NCBI GenBank assembly: GCA_021773135.1
Contig: JAJFKP010000027.1
Span: forward strand, 1 to 64,000
DNA from: Woeseiaceae bacterium
GTDB lineage: Bacteria > Pseudomonadota > Gammaproteobacteria > Steroidobacterales > Woeseiaceae
Length of the DNA stretch: 64,000 bases
Direction: 5' to 3'
Numbering within the stretch: position 1 is the stretch's first letter; the number at the start of each line of letters is the position of its first letter. Made by a program: the position numbers and the translations under genes. Below are positions 7,207 to 36,184 of the stretch, in pieces. A model generated the notes under the pieces. It was not told where the DNA came from, searched no databases, and saw only the letters and a list, made by a program, of their open reading frames with translations.

Positions 7207-8535
7207 TTGAAGCTGGATGTAATCGACTTTGCTCGCAGCCGTGCAATCGTTCTGTTCCTGTTGGCGGGCGCTCTGCTGACGACCAATGCGCATGCGCAGA
7301 GCACATCAGCGCGGCCCAATATCGTGCTCATTGTCTCGGACTATATGGGCTATCGAGATATCGAACCTTATGGCGCTGCGGATATTAGTACGCCGTCGCT
7401 CAGTCGCCTGGCATCTGAAGGCACCAGGATGACCAATTTTTATGCTGCGGCACCGGTTTGCGGGCCCGCGCGCGCTGCATTGTATACGGGACAATATCCG
7501 GCCAGAATCGATTTTGAGAAGAACATTCGCACCGAGGCCGACGGATTGTCGTCTTCAATCCCAACGTTGCCGCGCTGGCTGAAATCTGCCGGATACCGGA
7601 CGGCGCTCTTTGGCAAATGGCACCTGGGATCCGCTCCCGAGTTCACCCCGAACGCGCACGGGTTTGACGAGTTTGTCGGTCATCATATGTGGACGATTGG
7701 CTACTACAATCACAAGACGGCAGAGGGCGAGCCGGGGTTATTCGAAAATAACCAGATTGCAGATCGGGAAGGGTATCTGACAGACCTGCTGACAGTCGAG
7801 GCCGTCAACTTTATAGACAGAAACAGCGATCAGCCGTTCTTCGTTACGTTGGCTTATAACGCGGCGCTACCGCCGTATCAGCCACCGGGCCTGCCTGAGG
7901 CGCGCTGGGACGAGGGCTGGGATGTTAATGAGGCAAGTCGAACCGACTATGTCCACATGGTTGAGCGCATGGATGATGGCATTGGCAAAGTGCTCGACAA
8001 GCTCGATGAAAAACAGCTGTCGGCCAACACGTTCGTCATCTATACGTATGACCATGGCGGTCGGCACCTTGTGGATTCGTCACCTCTTTTTCATGGGTTC
8101 GCCAATTTGTGGGAGGGCGGCATTCGCACGCCCTTGATCATGCGGCTGCCGGGCGTGATCGAGGCAAACGAAGTATCTCCGGCACCGGGAATTGCGATGG
8201 ACATCGCCGCGACCATACTCGATGTAACAGGTTTGTCGGCAAACGCCGCATCTCTCGACGGTGTCAGCCTGTTGCCAATATTGCAGGGCGGCGCTGCAGC
8301 ACCGGTCCGTCAATTTTATTGGCAGGCTGACTTCTACAACTTTGGCCAACAGCGAGCGATTCGGGAGGGCAACTGGAAATTAATCGAGCATGACAATACG
8401 CAGTTCCTGTTTGACCTGACTGACAGTCCTGACGAGAGAAATAATCAATACTACCGTCGTCAGGATATCGCTAAGCGATTACGTGCAGCATTGGATAGAT
8501 GGCAAGACAATGTCAATGGGGTCGAACCGAATTAA
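7207..8535 (+). CDS. Exported sulfatase-family protein with altered active-site residues
   Basis: A periplasmic protein of 442 residues starting at TTG, with a signal peptide ending near NAHAQ. It has the sulfatase fold (RPNIVLIVSD, FGKWHLG with K137/H139, LWEGGIRTP). The formylglycine motif CxPxR is present as C85-G-P-A-R89. Several usual catalytic or metal residues are changed: the DD pair near 45-46 is D-Y, the YNAPH histidine position reads YNAALPP, the DN pair near 282-283 is D-H, and the usual lysine before YEGG is absent. Arylsulfatase activity is therefore doubtful, and another phosphatase-like or binding role is possible. The last codons and stop fall inside a 74-bp repeat element. 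Confidence 0.85.
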   Translation: MKLDVIDFARSRAIVLFLLAGALLTTNAHAQSTSARPNIVLIVSDYMGYRDIEPYGAADISTPSLSRLASEGTRMTNFYAAAPVCGPARAALYTGQYPARIDFEKNIRTEADGLSSSIPTLPRWLKSAGYRTALFGKWHLGSAPEFTPNAHGFDEFVGHHMWTIGYYNHKTAEGEPGLFENNQIADREGYLTDLLTVEAVNFIDRNSDQPFFVTLAYNAALPPYQPPGLPEARWDEGWDVNEASRTDYVHMVERMDDGIGKVLDKLDEKQLSANTFVIYTYDHGGRHLVDSSPLFHGFANLWEGGIRTPLIMRLPGVIEANEVSPAPGIAMDIAATILDVTGLSANAASLDGVSLLPILQGGAAAPVRQFYWQADFYNFGQQRAIREGNWKLIEHDNTQFLFDLTDSPDERNNQYYRRQDIAKRLRAALDRWQDNVNGVEPN

Positions 8536-28201: not shown

Positions 28202-31039
28202 TCAGCCTCGCTTTTTTTTGACACGTTCGTTACCCGGCCCGTGCCGACACGTCAGCAAAGTCACCAGCAGCGCGAATACCAGCCAGATGTCCAGCGCGCC
28301 TCCGCCGCCCGACGAATTGCTTGCAGTAGCGACGTCATCATCATTGATATCTATCGATGCTGCGCTTGGTGAGCCAATGGCAGCGCCGATTGCGTTGGTC
28401 AGGAGGACTGTGAACGACTCGCGACTTTCCTGTGTGGAATCGTTCAGGATCCCTATAGCTATCGTCTGGCTGCCGCTCTCGCCGTCGGCCCAGCTCAGAG
28501 TGCCGGAAGCCGCTGTAAAATCCGAGCCTGCAGTTGCCTGACCTGGCTGCGTCGCATAGTCAATGCTTGCCGGTCCGAGCGATCCACTCGAGCGTGCTAC
28601 GGTAATTATCACCTGAGTTGCGGTCTCGGTGACTGAATAACTCGATTGACTAAAAGCCAGAAGCCCCGCCATGGACTCATTGTCGGCAATCTCCAATGTC
28701 GCGTTATTGTTCTGACCAAGCGTTGCACCTGTCACATTGCTCAAGGTCAATAGCACAGTTTCATCCGGTTCGATCTCCTGATCATCGATCACGGGGACCG
28801 TAAACGTCTTGTCACCATTTTCTCCCAGGCCCCAACTGAGGGTGCCGCTGGAGCTGGTGTAGTCTGAGCCGGCTTCGGCACTATTGTTTGCGGTGGCGTA
28901 GTTGACGGTTGCGCCGCCCACACCGCCGGTGCGACTCACCGTTATTGTGGCACTGCCGCCATCCTCAGCGACGTTGTAGGTGGGCGAGGAGAATCCAATT
29001 TCCCCGGCCGTCGGCAGCGTATAGCTTGCGGTAATTTCGTAAGTTTTCGGCTGCTGATCGTAATTGACGACGACCGCGTGGTACGTGCCCGGCAGGGGAT
29101 TCGCGATCGAGATTGATTCGTCAGAATCGTCCGTCGAGCTAATCCCGGTTTCGGCATCGACATAGTAAAAGCCGTTGCCAGGTGCGACGTTCAGCGATAT
29201 CAGATACTGGGGGGATTGGGCGAATCGCAGCAGTAGATCGACATCACCCGGACCGGTCGTCGAGACATTCAGATCCGTCGCGCCCGGCGGTACATCGATA
29301 TTAAAAGCCTGAAATTCATCCCAGTCAAAACGTTGCACGGCCTGGGCAATCGTTTGGGCATTTCGAAGTGTGCCTACTTCCTGGTAAAAGTAGCGGCTCG
29401 GAAGCATCGCGCTTGTGGCTGACGTCAAATCGAGGCGCATGAACAGCTGTCTGTTTCCGGAAACCGTATTTGATAGCGTAACGCTAAAGTTGGCAGTCGC
29501 CTGTGTGTCTTTCGCGATGTCGCCAAACAATACCGGGGTGACGTCGTTTACGCTGATGTCAGCACTGTCGGTGGTGGACAAACTGGCGGTAACGGCGGTT
29601 TCGTCAGTCCAGACATTGTGCAAAGTAACCTGCAGCTGAGCTGTTTCTCCAGGATCCAGCTTGCCATTGCCGTTACCGGTCGCCGCGTCGTCGACAGTCA
29701 CATCACTGAGCAGCAGAACGCCGCCAGAGGGCACGGATAAAGCCGTATTCGCATCCAACCGTCCCGTCGCCACACGGCCCGGAATGGCTTCTTTGCTTTG
29801 TCCCGGCGTTACCGGAGTTAGGGCGTCCCGGCCTTCGGTTGTGCCATTCAAAAGAGACGCTTTTACCTGGCGATAGTCCGTAGTACTTGCGTTGGCGTAA
29901 ATGAGTGCAGCAACGCCAGCTACATGTGGAGCTGAAAATGATGTGCCGCTGACGGTTGCGAAACTATTGTTGTTGGCAGTTGTTCTGATGAGGTCGCCGG
30001 GCGCCGCTAAATGCACGCTGTCGGCACCCCACTGGCTAAACCCGGATATCCTGTCCCGACTGTCTGAGGACGCGACAGATAGAATGTTGTTCTGGGTTGC
30101 GTTGGACGGGTAGTGAGAAGCAAAGCCATTATTCGCGTCCGCGTTGCCCGCTGATGCGATCATCAATATACCTGCCGACTCTGCTCGATCGATAGCTTGA
30201 GATAGTGCTTCGGTCCCAACCGGGCCGCCAAAGCTCATGTTGATAATGTCTGCATTCTGTGCGATCGCTTCGTCGATCGCTTCTATTATCGCAAAGTAGG
30301 ACAGATCGACTTTCAACGGCAACAGGTTGGTTTCCCAGGCTGCACCCGCTACCCCGATGCCATTATTGCCGCGAGCCGCCGCCGTGCCGCCGACCAAAGT
30401 ACCGTGAAAATCGTTGCCGTCAGCGGGATTCGGATCGTTCGGGCCATTAGTACACGGTCGAGCACTGTTTGGCGATGCGAAGCAGCGCCCGGTAGGCATC
30501 ACATTCGCAACCAGATCGATATGTGCCGTTTCCATCGAATCATCGATGATTGCAATCACAACCCCTGCAGCGGCCGATTGCGTATCCCAGGCAGCGACCA
30601 GATTGAGATCGGCGCCGGCATGGCCAAGTCCACCGGGAGCATTAACGCCCGTATTTTCCTTAGACCACTGCGTCGCAAACTCCAGGTCATTGGGAGTGGC
30701 CCACAGGTTTGTCGTGTAGTTAGGCTCGGCAAATTCAATTCCTGCGTCGGCTTCAAGAATCAGGATCGCTGTCTCAAGGTCCGTGTCATTGCTGATTGCA
30801 ACAACGTCGACCGAAGAGGTCGCGGAGGTCACAAGCACCGTGCCACCCAGCCCTGACAGCAGGTTCTCAATGACGGTCGTCGCTGTTCCGGATGCGCGCT
30901 TGACCAGAATCTGTGCTGGAACGTGTGGAACCGTATAAAGCGTTTGAGGTCCACCGGCGGGCGCCTCGGCCCATGCATTTATTGTAATAGTCGCCGACAA
31001 AATGAAAGCGGCGACCAGTGAAACCTGATTCCTGCCCAA
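28202..31039 (-). CDS. Exported subtilisin-like (S8) protease with Calx-beta domains and GlyGly-CTERM tail
   Basis: A protein of 945 residues with a signal peptide (ending NAWA) and a propeptide (VPAQILVKRASG ... FAEPNY). The S8 domain has the catalytic aspartate in AIIDDSME, the histidine in FHGTLVGG, the oxyanion asparagine in IASAGN and the serine in SGTSFSAPHVAG. A pre-peptidase-type beta domain follows. Two Calx-beta repeats come next, each ending in a TLSW-D/G-E motif. The C terminus is a glycine run, one hydrophobic helix and basic residues (GGGGALDIWLVFALL then RVKKKRG). That is the layout of rhombosortase-processed surface proteins. The start is TTG at 31039. Confidence 0.88.
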   Translation of the reverse strand: MGRNQVSLVAAFILSATITINAWAEAPAGGPQTLYTVPHVPAQILVKRASGTATTVIENLLSGLGGTVLVTSATSSVDVVAISNDTDLETAILILEADAGIEFAEPNYTTNLWATPNDLEFATQWSKENTGVNAPGGLGHAGADLNLVAAWDTQSAAAGVVIAIIDDSMETAHIDLVANVMPTGRCFASPNSARPCTNGPNDPNPADGNDFHGTLVGGTAAARGNNGIGVAGAAWETNLLPLKVDLSYFAIIEAIDEAIAQNADIINMSFGGPVGTEALSQAIDRAESAGILMIASAGNADANNGFASHYPSNATQNNILSVASSDSRDRISGFSQWGADSVHLAAPGDLIRTTANNNSFATVSGTSFSAPHVAGVAALIYANASTTDYRQVKASLLNGTTEGRDALTPVTPGQSKEAIPGRVATGRLDANTALSVPSGGVLLLSDVTVDDAATGNGNGKLDPGETAQLQVTLHNVWTDETAVTASLSTTDSADISVNDVTPVLFGDIAKDTQATANFSVTLSNTVSGNRQLFMRLDLTSATSAMLPSRYFYQEVGTLRNAQTIAQAVQRFDWDEFQAFNIDVPPGATDLNVSTTGPGDVDLLLRFAQSPQYLISLNVAPGNGFYYVDAETGISSTDDSDESISIANPLPGTYHAVVVNYDQQPKTYEITASYTLPTAGEIGFSSPTYNVAEDGGSATITVSRTGGVGGATVNYATANNSAEAGSDYTSSSGTLSWGLGENGDKTFTVPVIDDQEIEPDETVLLTLSNVTGATLGQNNNATLEIADNESMAGLLAFSQSSYSVTETATQVIITVARSSGSLGPASIDYATQPGQATAGSDFTAASGTLSWADGESGSQTIAIGILNDSTQESRESFTVLLTNAIGAAIGSPSAASIDINDDDVATASNSSGGGGALDIWLVFALLVTLLTCRHGPGNERVKKKRG

Positions 31040-31702: not shown

Positions 31703-33124
31703 GTGCTTCGGCGTCCCGTGGCATTTACTATACGCACGTATCCAGAGTCGCCTAACAAGGTAGAATTGCCGGGCGGCGATCTTCCAGCGGAATCCAATTT
31801 GAGTAATAACGGCAAGAAGAACCAACCCAAGCCAAAAATAATTCCGCGCCCTTCCCACAACGTCTCCCGGGACGCAATATCCCGGAGTGCGTTGAAGGTC
31901 CTCTACCGGCTGCATAAATCCGGTTTTCAGGCCTTCCTCGTTGGCGGTGGCGTGCGGGATGCGCTTTTGGGTCTGTACCCCAAGGACTTCGACATTGCGA
32001 CCGATGCGAACCCTGATGAAGTGCGGGCGTTGTTTTCGAATTGCCGTTTGATTGGCCGTCGGTTTCGACTCGCACACGTTCGATTCGGCAGAGAAATAAT
32101 CGAGGTCGCAACTTTTCGCGCCGCGACAGACGGTAATGAAAAACATCTGGATGTCGAGCACGATCGCGAAGGCAGAATACTGCGTGATAACGTGTATGGC
32201 AGCATTGACGAAGACGTATGGCGCCGCGACTTCACCTGCAATGCACTCTATTACAACATTGCCGATTTCAGCATCTGGGACTACGTTGACGGGGTGAAGG
32301 ATATCCAGCGTCGCCGTCTCGAACTCATCGGCGATCCGGATACGCGACTTCGTGAAGATCCGGTGAGAATGCTTCGCGCTGTACGATTTTCCGCCAAGCT
32401 GGATTTCCACATTGCCAAAGACGTGGAGAAATCGATGCTGAAGAATCGAGATTTACTTTCCAATGTTCCCCCGGCCCGCTTGTTTGACGAGTTTCTCAAA
32501 ATGTTTCAGGCAGGGTATGCAGAAAAGGTGTTCGAGGAATTGCGACAATACAACCTTTTCAGTCAGCTTTTCCCGGAGACCAACACGGCGATGGATGAAG
32601 ATGACAATTTCCTGCGCTTCGCGCGAAGCGCACTTGCCAATACCGACCGTCGGGTTGCCGAAGAGAAATCCGTCACGCCTATGTTCCTGCTTGGCGTTTT
32701 TCTATGGAAGCCAGTTAAGCAATTGGCGGAAAAACTGCGCTCTGCGGAGAAGATGTCTGAGGCACAATCATTAAGCCTGGCGTCGTTCGAGATTGCTGGC
32801 ATGCAGCAATCCCGTATTTCGATTCCACGAAGATTCACGGCGCCAATGCGAGAAATGCTTGCCATGCAGCCGCGTTTCGAAGTCACACGCGGTAAGCGCG
32901 GTCTCAAACTCCTGGAGCATCGACGTTTTCGTGCGGCATACGATTTCATGATGCTGCGCGCAGAGTGCGGAGAAATTGACCACGAACTGGCGGATTTCTG
33001 GACCGAGGTGCAAAAGCAAAGCGCGGCAGAGCGTCACGAAAGTTTCAAACTTGGCAACCAGCCGCGTTCCGACAAGCGCCGCAAATCGCGACGACGCAGA
33101 AGACCGGGAGCGAATACGGCGTGA
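31703..33124 (+). CDS. pcnB: Poly(A) polymerase I
   Basis: A 473-residue nucleotidyltransferase that adds poly(A) tails to RNA and so speeds decay. The catalytic core reads LVGGGVRDALLG, KDFDIAT with its two metal aspartates, FRLAHVRFGREIIEVATFR, and RRDFTCNALYYN. The basic C-terminal tail (KRRKSRRRRRP) is usual for PcnB and distinguishes it from CCA-adding enzyme. The GTG start at 31703 is uncertain; homology proper begins around IPRPSHNVSRDAIS. Its stop overlaps the folK start by 4 bp. Confidence 0.93.
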   Translation: MLRRPVAFTIRTYPESPNKVELPGGDLPAESNLSNNGKKNQPKPKIIPRPSHNVSRDAISRSALKVLYRLHKSGFQAFLVGGGVRDALLGLYPKDFDIATDANPDEVRALFSNCRLIGRRFRLAHVRFGREIIEVATFRAATDGNEKHLDVEHDREGRILRDNVYGSIDEDVWRRDFTCNALYYNIADFSIWDYVDGVKDIQRRRLELIGDPDTRLREDPVRMLRAVRFSAKLDFHIAKDVEKSMLKNRDLLSNVPPARLFDEFLKMFQAGYAEKVFEELRQYNLFSQLFPETNTAMDEDDNFLRFARSALANTDRRVAEEKSVTPMFLLGVFLWKPVKQLAEKLRSAEKMSEAQSLSLASFEIAGMQQSRISIPRRFTAPMREMLAMQPRFEVTRGKRGLKLLEHRRFRAAYDFMMLRAECGEIDHELADFWTEVQKQSAAERHESFKLGNQPRSDKRRKSRRRRRPGANTA

Positions 33125-33630
33125 GTGAGCCGCATTGGCGGCCGGCTTATATAGGTATCGGGAGCAATCTTGAGTCCCCTTCCGAGCAGGTTACCCGTGG
33201 CATTGCCGCATTAGCGCAGATTTCAAAATCTGTTCTTGTGTACTATTCAAGCCAGTATCGGTCCGCGCCAATGGGCCCGAAAGATCAGCCGGACTTTGTG
33301 AATGCCGTTGCGGCGGTGCTGACGCAGCTTGATCCACACGATTTTCTACGCGCTTTGCAGGCGATTGAGCTTGAACAAGGTAGGCAGCGAGACGGAGATC
33401 GTTGGGGGCCGCGAACGCTGGACCTCGATTTGCTTGCCTATTCCAACCTTACGGTTTCCGATGCCACGCTCACACTGCCGCATCCGGGCATTGCCGAGCG
33501 AAATTTTGTATTGTTGCCGTGGCAGGAAATTACGCCCCACTATCGTGTTCCAGGACTGGATAGTGTCGTCGAGCTGGCGCGAACTGCGTCCCTCCAGAAT
33601 CCCAAAATTGAAATTATGAGCACCAGTTAG
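33121..33630 (+). CDS. folK: 2-amino-4-hydroxy-6-hydroxymethyldihydropteridine pyrophosphokinase
   Basis: A 169-residue HPPK that transfers pyrophosphate from ATP to 6-hydroxymethyl-dihydropterin in folate synthesis. Signature residues are YIGIGSNLESP at the start, YRSAPMGPKDQPDFVNAV, GPRTLDLDLLAY (metal aspartates) and LPHPGIAERNFVL. GTG start, overlapping pcnB by four bases. In related genomes folK is usually followed by panB and panC; here a deoxynucleoside kinase comes instead. Confidence 0.95.
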   Translation: MSEPHWRPAYIGIGSNLESPSEQVTRGIAALAQISKSVLVYYSSQYRSAPMGPKDQPDFVNAVAAVLTQLDPHDFLRALQAIELEQGRQRDGDRWGPRTLDLDLLAYSNLTVSDATLTLPHPGIAERNFVLLPWQEITPHYRVPGLDSVVELARTASLQNPKIEIMSTS

Positions 33631-33634
33631 CCGC

Positions 33635-34312
33635 GTGATCGTTGAAACACTGAAAACTGTACCGAGAGAGTCGCGCTTTATTGCCGTTGAAGGTCCTATC
33701 GGCGTTGGCAAAACCAGTCTTGCGAAGCGCCTGGCAAAGCGCTTCGACGGCGATCTCGTGCTGGAAAGCGCTGTGGAAAATCCGTTTCTCGAAGAGTTCT
33801 ATCGATCGGGCCGAAAAACAGCCCTTCCGGCGCAACTTTTTTTCCTCTTCGAGCGATCGCGTCAGCTACAGGCACTCAACCAGTCAGACATGTTTTCGCC
33901 AGTCAGGATCGCAGACTTTCATGTTTTGCGAGACAGATTATTCGCGGAGCTAAACCTGAGTCCGGACGAGATGAGTCTTTACTCGCAGATCTACGATAGC
34001 CTTGATATGGATGTGCCGGTTCCCGATCTTGTCATTTACCTGCAGGCATCTGTCGATGCATTGATGTCGCGAATATCACGGCGCGGGGTCGACTACGAAC
34101 GCCATATTGATCGCCGTTACGTCGAGCGTGTCGCAGAAACTTACGCGCGATTCTTTCATGATTATGACGAGTCGCCGTTACTCATTGTTAATGCGTCTTC
34201 GATCGATCCGGAGCAAAATGATGCTGATTTCGACACGTTATTCGATCAGGTGCGACGTATAACCGGCGGTCGCCATTTTTTCAATCCGGCATCAACCGTT
34301 GCATTTGCCTGA
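33635..34312 (+). CDS. Deoxynucleoside kinase family protein
   Basis: A 225-residue kinase of the deoxyguanosine/deoxyadenosine kinase type. It has the P-loop EGPIGVGKTS, the segment ADFHVLRDRLFAEL, and the lid-region arginines RISRRGVDYE followed by IDRRYVERVAETY. It would phosphorylate deoxynucleosides in salvage. GTG start at 33635, five bases after folK, so it is in the same operon. It occupies the place where panB is often found. Confidence 0.88.
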   Translation: MIVETLKTVPRESRFIAVEGPIGVGKTSLAKRLAKRFDGDLVLESAVENPFLEEFYRSGRKTALPAQLFFLFERSRQLQALNQSDMFSPVRIADFHVLRDRLFAELNLSPDEMSLYSQIYDSLDMDVPVPDLVIYLQASVDALMSRISRRGVDYERHIDRRYVERVAETYARFFHDYDESPLLIVNASSIDPEQNDADFDTLFDQVRRITGGRHFFNPASTVAFA

Positions 34313-34356
34313 ACTTTGTCTTTGAACACTAGCAATCAGATCGGAGCAGAAAACTG

Positions 34357-35205
34357 GTGGAAGTAGTAACAACAACCGAAGAGCTGCGTGAACTGTTATC
34401 TGGCTGGCGCCACGAGGGCGACCATATCGCGCTGGTGCCTACGATGGGCGATCTCCACGATGGGCAGGTGAGCCTTGTGGAAATTGCGCGCGAGCATGCG
34501 GAACGTGTAGTCGTGTCCATATTCAGGCTTCCCGACCAGCCCGTGGTTGCAGAAGCAGGCGGCGACCTGGCCGGCATCCTGGAGAGAGACAAGCGCAGAC
34601 TCAAACTTCTGAAAACGGATTTATTGTTTCTGCCGGACGTAGAGACGGTCTACCCGTACGGAATCGACGGTGCAACCACTGTTTCCGTTCCGGCGTTGAC
34701 GAAGGATCTGTTTGGTCCAACCAAGCCGGACGAATTCGACAGCGTCACCTCAATGGTCACCAGGCTGTTTGGCCTGGTAGCGCCTGATGTTGCTGTGTTT
34801 GGCCAGAAGGACTATCAGCAGCAGCTTGTGATCAGTCGAATGGCCAGGGACCTGAGTTTGCCAATCAAGATAATCTGCGGCCCGACAGTGCGAGAAAAGG
34901 ACGGCCTGGCGATGAGTGCCATGAACCGGTATTTGTCTGCAGAAGAGCGTCAATTGGCGCCAAAATTATATAGCGTGCTAGAGGAAATCGGTCGCGGACT
35001 TGAGACCGGTCAACGCAACTATCGGCAGCTGGAAGAGCAGGGGATTGAAAGTCTGGAGGCGTTGGGCTTCCGGCCGGAATACGTGAGTATTCGTCGCGCA
35101 GAGAATCTGGAGGTGCCAGACCGCGACTGCGACGAGCTGGTCGTGCTTGTCTCAGCGTGGCTCGGCGACTTTCGGCTACTCGATAACCAGGTCGTGCATA
35201 TCTGA
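34357..35205 (+). CDS. panC: Pantothenate synthetase-like protein with changed ATP-site motifs
   Basis: A 282-residue protein with the PanC fold, which joins pantoate and beta-alanine using ATP. VPTMGDLHDG and FGQKDYQQQ are close to consensus. Several normally fixed residues differ: the second histidine of HxGH is Q (LHDGQ), SIFVNPxQF is SIFRLPDQP, and SSRN is SAMN, which loses the arginine. These bear on ATP binding and transition-state stabilisation, so activity may be changed. The start is GTG 34357. No panB or panD is seen beside it. Confidence 0.85.
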   Translation: MEVVTTTEELRELLSGWRHEGDHIALVPTMGDLHDGQVSLVEIAREHAERVVVSIFRLPDQPVVAEAGGDLAGILERDKRRLKLLKTDLLFLPDVETVYPYGIDGATTVSVPALTKDLFGPTKPDEFDSVTSMVTRLFGLVAPDVAVFGQKDYQQQLVISRMARDLSLPIKIICGPTVREKDGLAMSAMNRYLSAEERQLAPKLYSVLEEIGRGLETGQRNYRQLEEQGIESLEALGFRPEYVSIRRAENLEVPDRDCDELVVLVSAWLGDFRLLDNQVVHI

Positions 35206-35212
35206 ACAGGCG

Positions 35213-36184
35213 TCAATTCGAAACGGTATTTCTGCCAGCATTCTTGGCACGATACAGCGCCGCATCGGCGTCTTTCAAAAGTGCTTCGAAGCCACCGTGA
35301 TTTCGCAATTCCGCGACGCCCATCGAAATCTCGATCGGGATCTGGATCAGGGAATCGTCGCTCGACTCAGTACTGCCAGAAACGGCGGTTCTGACTCTTT
35401 CCGCAATTTGCATACATTCTTCTTCATCGATGCCAGGCAGCAACACGGCAAACTCATCGCCGCCATAGCGGACCAGCAGATCGCGCGGCCGAAATTGCTT
35501 GCCGAGAACGTGGGCGACCGCTGACAGGGCCCGATCTCCGGCCACGTGGCCGAACTTGTCGTTGAACGACTTGAACTGGTCGACATCGATCATAATCAGG
35601 GATACCGGGTCGCTGTCCTGTGCGCAACGATTCACCTCCCGCGAGAATGATTCCTCCATTGCGTGACGATTGCCGAGTCCTGTAAGGGCATCTGTGGTCG
35701 CGTGTTTCTCAAATTTTCGCCAGTCACCAATGCTTTCGGCAATAAAGTGATTGTGGCTGCGCACCCTTTCAGAAAGTACAACCAGCAGATTCTTGGAGAA
35801 CGCATGCGATGCGTTAACCATGTCCCACAGCACATCTTTGTGAATGACGAGCAGGTGGGTTGCCTCGGCCGCAACCACGTAGGCTGACGGGTCGCGGTCT
35901 TCGATGATCGACATCTCACCCGCACATTCGCCAGATGCCATGGTCGCGAGGACCGGTGAATCGGTCGATCCCACATGCACATTCAGCTCACCCGACAGCA
36001 CGACGAAGACGTTTTCATTTTTTGCCCCGGGAGAAAGGAGCAATTCGCCCGTTTCAAGGTCGAGCCGATCGCAATCCTGTAACAACGCCTGTACGTCGTC
36101 CGGTTGGACGCCCTGAAACAATTCGAGCCCGGCAAGCAACGATTTCTTGTAGTCGGACGTAATTTCAACGGCTTCAGTTGACAC
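35213..36184 (-). CDS. Cyclic-nucleotide-binding-domain diguanylate cyclase
   Basis: A 323-residue protein. The N-terminal half (about 20-140) is a Crp-type cNMP-binding fold (LFQGVQPDDVQALLQDCDRL, GELNVHVGS, GECAGEMSIIEDRDPSAYVVAAE). The C-terminal half is a GGDEF domain with intact YGGDEF and an RxxD inhibitory site (RPRD) five residues before it. It should make c-di-GMP under control of the N-terminal sensor; the CNB phosphate cassette is degenerate, so the ligand may not be cAMP. GTG start. It converges with panC, with 7 bp between stops. Confidence 0.9.
   Translation of the reverse strand: MSTEAVEITSDYKKSLLAGLELFQGVQPDDVQALLQDCDRLDLETGELLLSPGAKNENVFVVLSGELNVHVGSTDSPVLATMASGECAGEMSIIEDRDPSAYVVAAEATHLLVIHKDVLWDMVNASHAFSKNLLVVLSERVRSHNHFIAESIGDWRKFEKHATTDALTGLGNRHAMEESFSREVNRCAQDSDPVSLIMIDVDQFKSFNDKFGHVAGDRALSAVAHVLGKQFRPRDLLVRYGGDEFAVLLPGIDEEECMQIAERVRTAVSGSTESSDDSLIQIPIEISMGVAELRNHGGFEALLKDADAALYRAKNAGRNTVSN

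Follow-up and report, generated by a model that had tools for sequence, protein, structure and literature searches.

An orphan PanC with replaced active-site residues in a panB-less Woeseiaceae genome, a candidate retained pseudoenzyme

In the stretch of Woeseiaceae DNA analysed here (64,000 nucleotides, hereafter the window), the pantothenate synthetase gene panC stands without panB. This raises the question of whether its product still makes pantothenate, is decaying, or has been kept for another role. The open PMC literature, outside which most subscription papers lie, yielded nothing on pantothenate in Woeseiaceae and nothing joining panC, panB and pseudoenzymes.

Gene order and loss of panB

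The genes of the locus are listed in Table 1. Pfam signatures assigned every gene of the row to a family, and all except the deoxynucleoside kinase gene (dNK) also scored over the NCBIfam cut-offs. In relatives the conserved row reads pcnB-folK-dNK-panB-panC, with pcnB as its first gene; the GTG start listed for pcnB may sit too far upstream. An earlier note, made from the window sequence alone, had placed dNK in the usual panB slot. This is incorrect: dNK occupies the same place in relatives that have panB after it, and it is therefore the ancestral, ordinary neighbour between folK and panB, panB simply being missing between dNK and panC. A replacement of panB by dNK is thus ruled out. The window panC runs for 282 codons from GTG to stop without internal stop or frameshift, and its product matches PF02569 (Pantoate_ligase) over its full length (251.1 bits, residues 3-278) and passes the cut-off of TIGR00018 panC (235.8 bits for a cut-off of 212.75). 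A protein similar to its cNMP-binding/GGDEF-like neighbour also comes after panC in two other genomes of the family, G032 and G114.

Table 1. Coordinates of the features discussed, in the window unless a locus label (L) is given
Feature	Position	Strand	Basis or remark
Large subtilisin-like protease with repeated Calx-beta-like stretches	28202-31039	-	by eye
pcnB (poly(A) polymerase)	31703..33124	+	ORF; TIGR01942, 489.9 bits; order in relatives
folK (HPPK)	33121..33630	+	ORF; Pfam HPPK; NCBIfam over cut-off
dNK (deoxynucleoside kinase)	33635..34312	+	PF01712, 118.1 bits
44-base gap, panB position in relatives	34313..34356	+	ORF list
Orphan panC, 282 codons, GTG start, open frame	34357..35205	+	ORF; Pfam; NCBIfam
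HDGQ (residues 34-37) for HxGH	34456..34467	+	H37 taken as M. tuberculosis His47 by motif
LPDQP (58-62) for NPxQF	34528..34542	+	N58 = Asn69; Q61 = Gln72, kept (by motif)
LAG (71-73) for YPR	34567..34575	+	flexible wall by position
KPDEF (123-127) for RPGHF	34723..34737	+	R123 taken as Arg132 by motif
KDYQQ (151-155), kept	34807..34821	+	counterparts of Lys160 and Gln164
SAMN (187-190) for SSRN	34915..34926	+	R189 taken as Arg198, S188 as Ser197
cNMP-binding/GGDEF-like protein	35213..36184	-	ORF; domain name by eye; convergent with panC
panB C-terminal remnant of G001	L040, about 7924-8061	-	
Orphan PanC of G032	L043:6434-7282		282-codon open frame
Orphan PanC of G114	L223:2831-3679		282-codon open frame
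panB-panC-coaX cassette of G032	L044:6026-8357		tightly packed
panB-panC-coaX cassette of G114	L225:5279-7631		tightly packed

Profile searches of the window genome (G000; 4.55 Mb, 99.67% complete, a draft in 64 contigs) returned the window panC as the sole PF02569 match and no PF02548 (panB) match. The absence of panB noted earlier from the locus thus holds for the genome, and the search for a second panC that the note had proposed found none. Nothing significant was found in the 44-base gap when we looked for a panB remnant, the one blastn match (15 bases) being chance-like. Of six dNK-panC gaps without panB, the one in G001 was alone in giving significant panB matches, in a decayed stretch with two stop codons that matches PanB residues 230-275 and shows that panB was lost in place in G001. 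Compared with G010, 15 of 66 first and second positions of this remnant differ, for 6 to 13 in five intact tails; at 33 codons it is too short to carry weight as a neutral clock. No relative was found among viral contigs.

We collected 107 Woeseiaceae genomes, G000 included and mostly drafts, of which 92 match the panC profile and 90 the panB profile. Four genomes of a single genus (G000, G001, G007 and G011) have panC without panB, and a tree built from pcnB, folK and dNK separates them as one group (94% support). G010 has kept a panB cut by the contig end but is absent from that tree, so panB may have been lost once or more. In G032 and G114, panC follows dNK without panB between them, and a separate panB-panC-coaX cassette is present. 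Thirteen genomes, several of them incomplete, have neither gene; dNK is still present in G002, G013, G023 and G034 of this group. The panB and panC of G022 (L016 / L032) look distant from those of the family, perhaps through another replacement, with a weak match to the window PanC and the highest panB profile score. In G012, G016, G020, G070, G071, G090, G101, G110, G114 and G120, more distant PF02548 matches lie outside the panB-panC row and count on sequence grounds as PanB paralogs.

The downstream steps are retained. coaX was found in 16 of 17 genomes tested, G000 included, and is missing only from the 84% complete G011; the CoaB domain (PF04127) was found in all six genomes tested, and coaBC is kept in G000. 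The panB-less genomes therefore probably still make CoA from pantothenate, which the window cell probably imports. An ApbA_C (panE-like) gene is kept in G000 and seven other members of the genus (17 genomes tested); ApbA_C genes have several functions. The earlier note had also suggested looking for panD, which a profile search did not find in G000. This absence is uninformative, and was rejected as a sign of pathway loss, since most of the family lacks panD (present in 11 of 60 relatives, of which 2 of 36 in Woeseiaceae); the family presumably obtains its beta-alanine from another source. Similarly, panF gave no match over the model cut-off in any of 60 genomes and says nothing about pantothenate uptake.

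Active-site replacements and predicted fold

Alignment with relatives confirmed the motif changes reported in the earlier note, namely HxGQ for HxGH, LPDQP for NPxQF and SAMN for SSRN, which correspond to H37Q, to N58L and F62P, and to S188A and R189M, respectively. It also revealed changes that the note had missed: D67A, Y71L, P72A, R73G, R123K, G125D, H126E and G129S. To name these positions after M. tuberculosis PanC, we transferred the numbering of residues given in PMC5772511 by motif rather than by structural alignment. The active-site residues listed there are His44, His47, Asn69, Gln72, Lys160 and Gln164. So mapped, four of the six are kept in the window PanC (His44, Gln72, Lys160 and Gln164), His47 being replaced by Q and Asn69 by L.

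We gauged how unusual these replacements are from 94 panB-linked PanCs of the family (84 distinct sequences), which define 45 strictly invariant columns. Left out of this set were the six orphans, G113 and G086 (contig edge), G060 (partial), the partial match of G126 and the cassette PanCs of G032 and G114. In leave-one-out analyses of the 84 sequences, 77 broke no invariant column, five broke one and two broke two, whereas the window PanC breaks 13 of the 45, which exceeds chance. Fewer columns are broken in the other orphans: two in G001, three in G007, whose C-terminus is in addition cut off by the contig end, four in G011, four in G032 and five in G114. The changes differ among the four orphans of the genus, S188A alone being common to two of them; the window motif set is thus not a lineage-wide functional variant.

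We also surveyed 80 named loci more widely, ten of them already part of the earlier analysis; 20 key residues are intact there except for single changes in five loci (M30L, F127M, and H126F three times). Five of the 80 have no panB within the locus, panC lying near a contig end in two of these; with panB read at the locus level, their motifs are intact in three cases and changed by H126F only in two. On its own, a missing adjacent panB is therefore no predictor of PanC damage outside Woeseiaceae.

A structural model of the window PanC, built from 33 aligned sequences, has a mean pLDDT of 91.8, with a weak stretch at residues 65-68, by position the flexible wall. It superimposes on three Yersinia PanC chains with TM scores of 0.89-0.93, and the best 50 PDB matches listed are PanCs. 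The model lends weak support to the PanC fold being kept, because the input alignment itself pulls it towards that fold. In structural alignments, the window protein is 38-42% identical to the PanCs of Yersinia, E. coli, Salmonella, Neisseria and Burkholderia. It thus shares with known pantothenate synthetases (PF02569, TIGR00018; M. tuberculosis PanC, E. coli 1iho) a full-length profile match and a predicted fold, but differs from them in that the counterparts, by motif, of His47, Asn69, Ser197, Arg198 and Arg132 are replaced and that no PanB was found in its genome.

Constraint on the orphan genes

We compared five motif blocks, set after the changes had been seen, with the rest of PanC. Identity between G000 and three members of its genus is 0.50-0.54 inside the blocks (control pairs, 0.78-0.96) and 0.61-0.67 outside (control pairs, 0.63-0.71); the other three genus orphans are intermediate, at 0.72-0.83 inside and 0.64-0.72 outside. 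Of the conserved columns, 12 of 31 inside the blocks are changed in the window PanC, as against 4 of 36 outside (p = 0.009). The pooled counts for five orphan lineages are 24 of 155 and 8 of 174 (p = 0.0007), and taken singly the lineages other than the window give no significance (p = 0.06 to 0.59).

Most pairwise dS values within the genus are saturated, and pairwise dN/dS was set aside for a codon-likelihood branch model with ten taxa on the tree of PanC itself. Synonymous branch lengths were shared between partitions, as a fit with free lengths per partition was unusable inside the blocks. On the G000 branch, omega, which averages over the time before and after the loss of panB, is 0.197 inside the blocks (background 0.047) and 0.067 outside (background 0.080). 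A common factor for both partitions fits worse (2dlnL 26.8), as does an omega of 1 outside (2dlnL 34.9). The calibration is imperfect: two controls, G003 and G008, deviate in the reverse sense, with 2dlnL of 11.9 and 9.2. Among the orphans, G007 tends in the direction of the window gene (2dlnL 6.0), and G001 and G011 have no excess inside the blocks. The window panC thus has neither a broken frame nor, with an omega of 0.067 outside the blocks as a whole-branch average, a gene-wide release of constraint. In neutral simulations that left indels uncounted, the share of stop-free copies among those with at least 13 invariant columns changed was 8-9% at t = 0.11, compared with 2-5% at t = 0.15-0.2.

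In G011, the sister of G000, panC lacks an ATG, GTG or TTG where the start is conserved, and a short deletion seems to have shifted its first codons, so that decay seems to be under way. The window gene, whose species is represented by one genome, could be going through this process at an early stage or in an unusual form. Its pattern nevertheless agrees better with continued selection on the fold once pantothenate synthetase activity was lost than with uniform decay. The earlier suggestion of a lost or changed function with the fold kept is supported by the concentration of change in the motif blocks, normal constraint elsewhere and a confident fold model.

The orphan PanCs of G032 and G114 resemble that of the window in their locus, the absence of panB from its place and an intact 282-codon frame. 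They differ from it in that the ATP residues are kept, the pantoate side is changed and a second, panB-panC-coaX cassette is present. R123H, H126Y, Q155E and I275L are common to both. According to PMC9780415, pantoate is bound in M. tuberculosis PanC by Gln164, and Arg132 belongs to a positive region over the site; their counterparts, Q155 and R123, are both changed here. The pair shows strong purifying selection (omega 0.028 at dS 0.98), within the range of its neighbouring genes, at 0.018 for dNK, 0.041 for pcnB and 0.094 for folK. In an exact-pattern search of 396 genomes drawn from the order, no further HPGYFDGV PanCs were found. In the cassette PanCs the key motifs are intact apart from R73, and the cassette coaX is the only PF03309 match in either genome. 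The G032 cassette PanC matches the window PanC with an E-value of 2e-34, other full-length PanCs of the family that were scored giving 5e-47 or better, and the cassette was likely acquired. Judged by these sequences, G032 and G114 form a cleaner case than the window lineage and give the strongest indication that a different role can preserve an orphan PanC.

Competing explanations and significance

We lean, with slightly better than even confidence, towards the window protein being a retained PanC-fold pseudoenzyme, no longer a pantothenate synthetase, in a panB-less lineage that imports pantothenate. This lineage, unlike its relatives, has no panB between dNK and panC; it retains coaX and coaBC, and would take up pantothenate instead of making it. 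In its PanC, residues whose counterparts hold the ATP phosphates and line the active site are replaced, with the frame, the length and most of the constraint kept. Adenine nucleotide may still bind, because T29-M30-G31, H34, G36, K151-D152 and Q154-Q155 are still present; pantoate activation should fail without H37, S188 and R189, and the protein would presumably be kept for binding or structure. Somewhat more tentatively, at a little under an even chance, the PanC fold may have been kept and repurposed at least twice in Woeseiaceae after panB loss, as a conserved ligase with an altered pantoate pocket in G032 and G114, and with a dismantled site and the rest under selection in the window lineage.

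That PanC became useless after panB loss and is drifting neutrally, its frame still unbroken, strikes us as unlikely. The damaged-looking start in G011 and the panB remnant, interrupted by two stop codons, next to panC in G001 point that way, as do the largely different active-site changes of the genus orphans and the 13 of 107 family genomes, some incomplete, that lack both genes, PanC therefore being dispensable nearby. Yet outside the blocks the window gene has diverged no further than panB-linked PanCs have, its 282 codons are free of stop or frameshift, and a single factor shared by both parts gives a worse fit (2dlnL 26.8). A ligase that still uses ATP and joins other partners is improbable for the window protein. 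This reading draws mainly on G032 and G114, where, of the changes R123H, H126Y and Q155E, the last falls on the counterpart of the pantoate-binding Gln164 and the first on that of Arg132 in the charged region over the site (PMC9780415), the ATP motifs are kept under an omega of 0.028, and the separate cassette could supply the normal function. Although the window protein has retained K151 and Q155 too, the phosphate-side H37, S188 and R189 are gone from it, which makes adenylation doubtful, and no gene among the neighbours seen suggests a pathway.

PanC-only genomes are known from human gut bacteria as 'Apt' variants, which PMC6593275 reads as possible pantoate salvage. The window genome resembles them in having kept PanC, CoaX and the CoaB domain without PanB, and its PanC scores over the TIGR00018 equivalog cut-off. 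A working synthetase fed by imported pantoate is nonetheless quite improbable here: the gut PanCs are taken in that text to work on salvaged pantoate, whereas the active site of the window PanC is not intact but dismantled, with 13 of the 45 invariant columns broken, among them the counterparts of His47, Asn69 and Arg198. panD was also not found, though most of the family is without it. Scarcely credible, finally, is an artefact in which panB was lost in assembly or panC carries sequencing errors. The genome is indeed a draft in 64 contigs, but dNK and panC are contiguous across a 44-base gap, three other species of the genus have dNK and then panC without panB, and the changes take the form of clustered substitutions and not of frame errors.

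The retained-pseudoenzyme reading bears on how such genomes are annotated. The window gene passes the equivalog cut-off, and annotation would therefore call it a working PanC; a 'PanC only' genome of this kind would be read as capable of pantoate salvage though key catalytic residues are gone. The Woeseiaceae provide a natural series, from PanB-linked PanCs through orphans in which two to four of the invariant residues differ, one dismantled and one conserved with an altered pocket, to full loss. This series allows a test of whether an enzyme deprived of its substrate decays or gains another role, and the window gene suggests that a leftover PanC may do something other than vitamin B5 synthesis.
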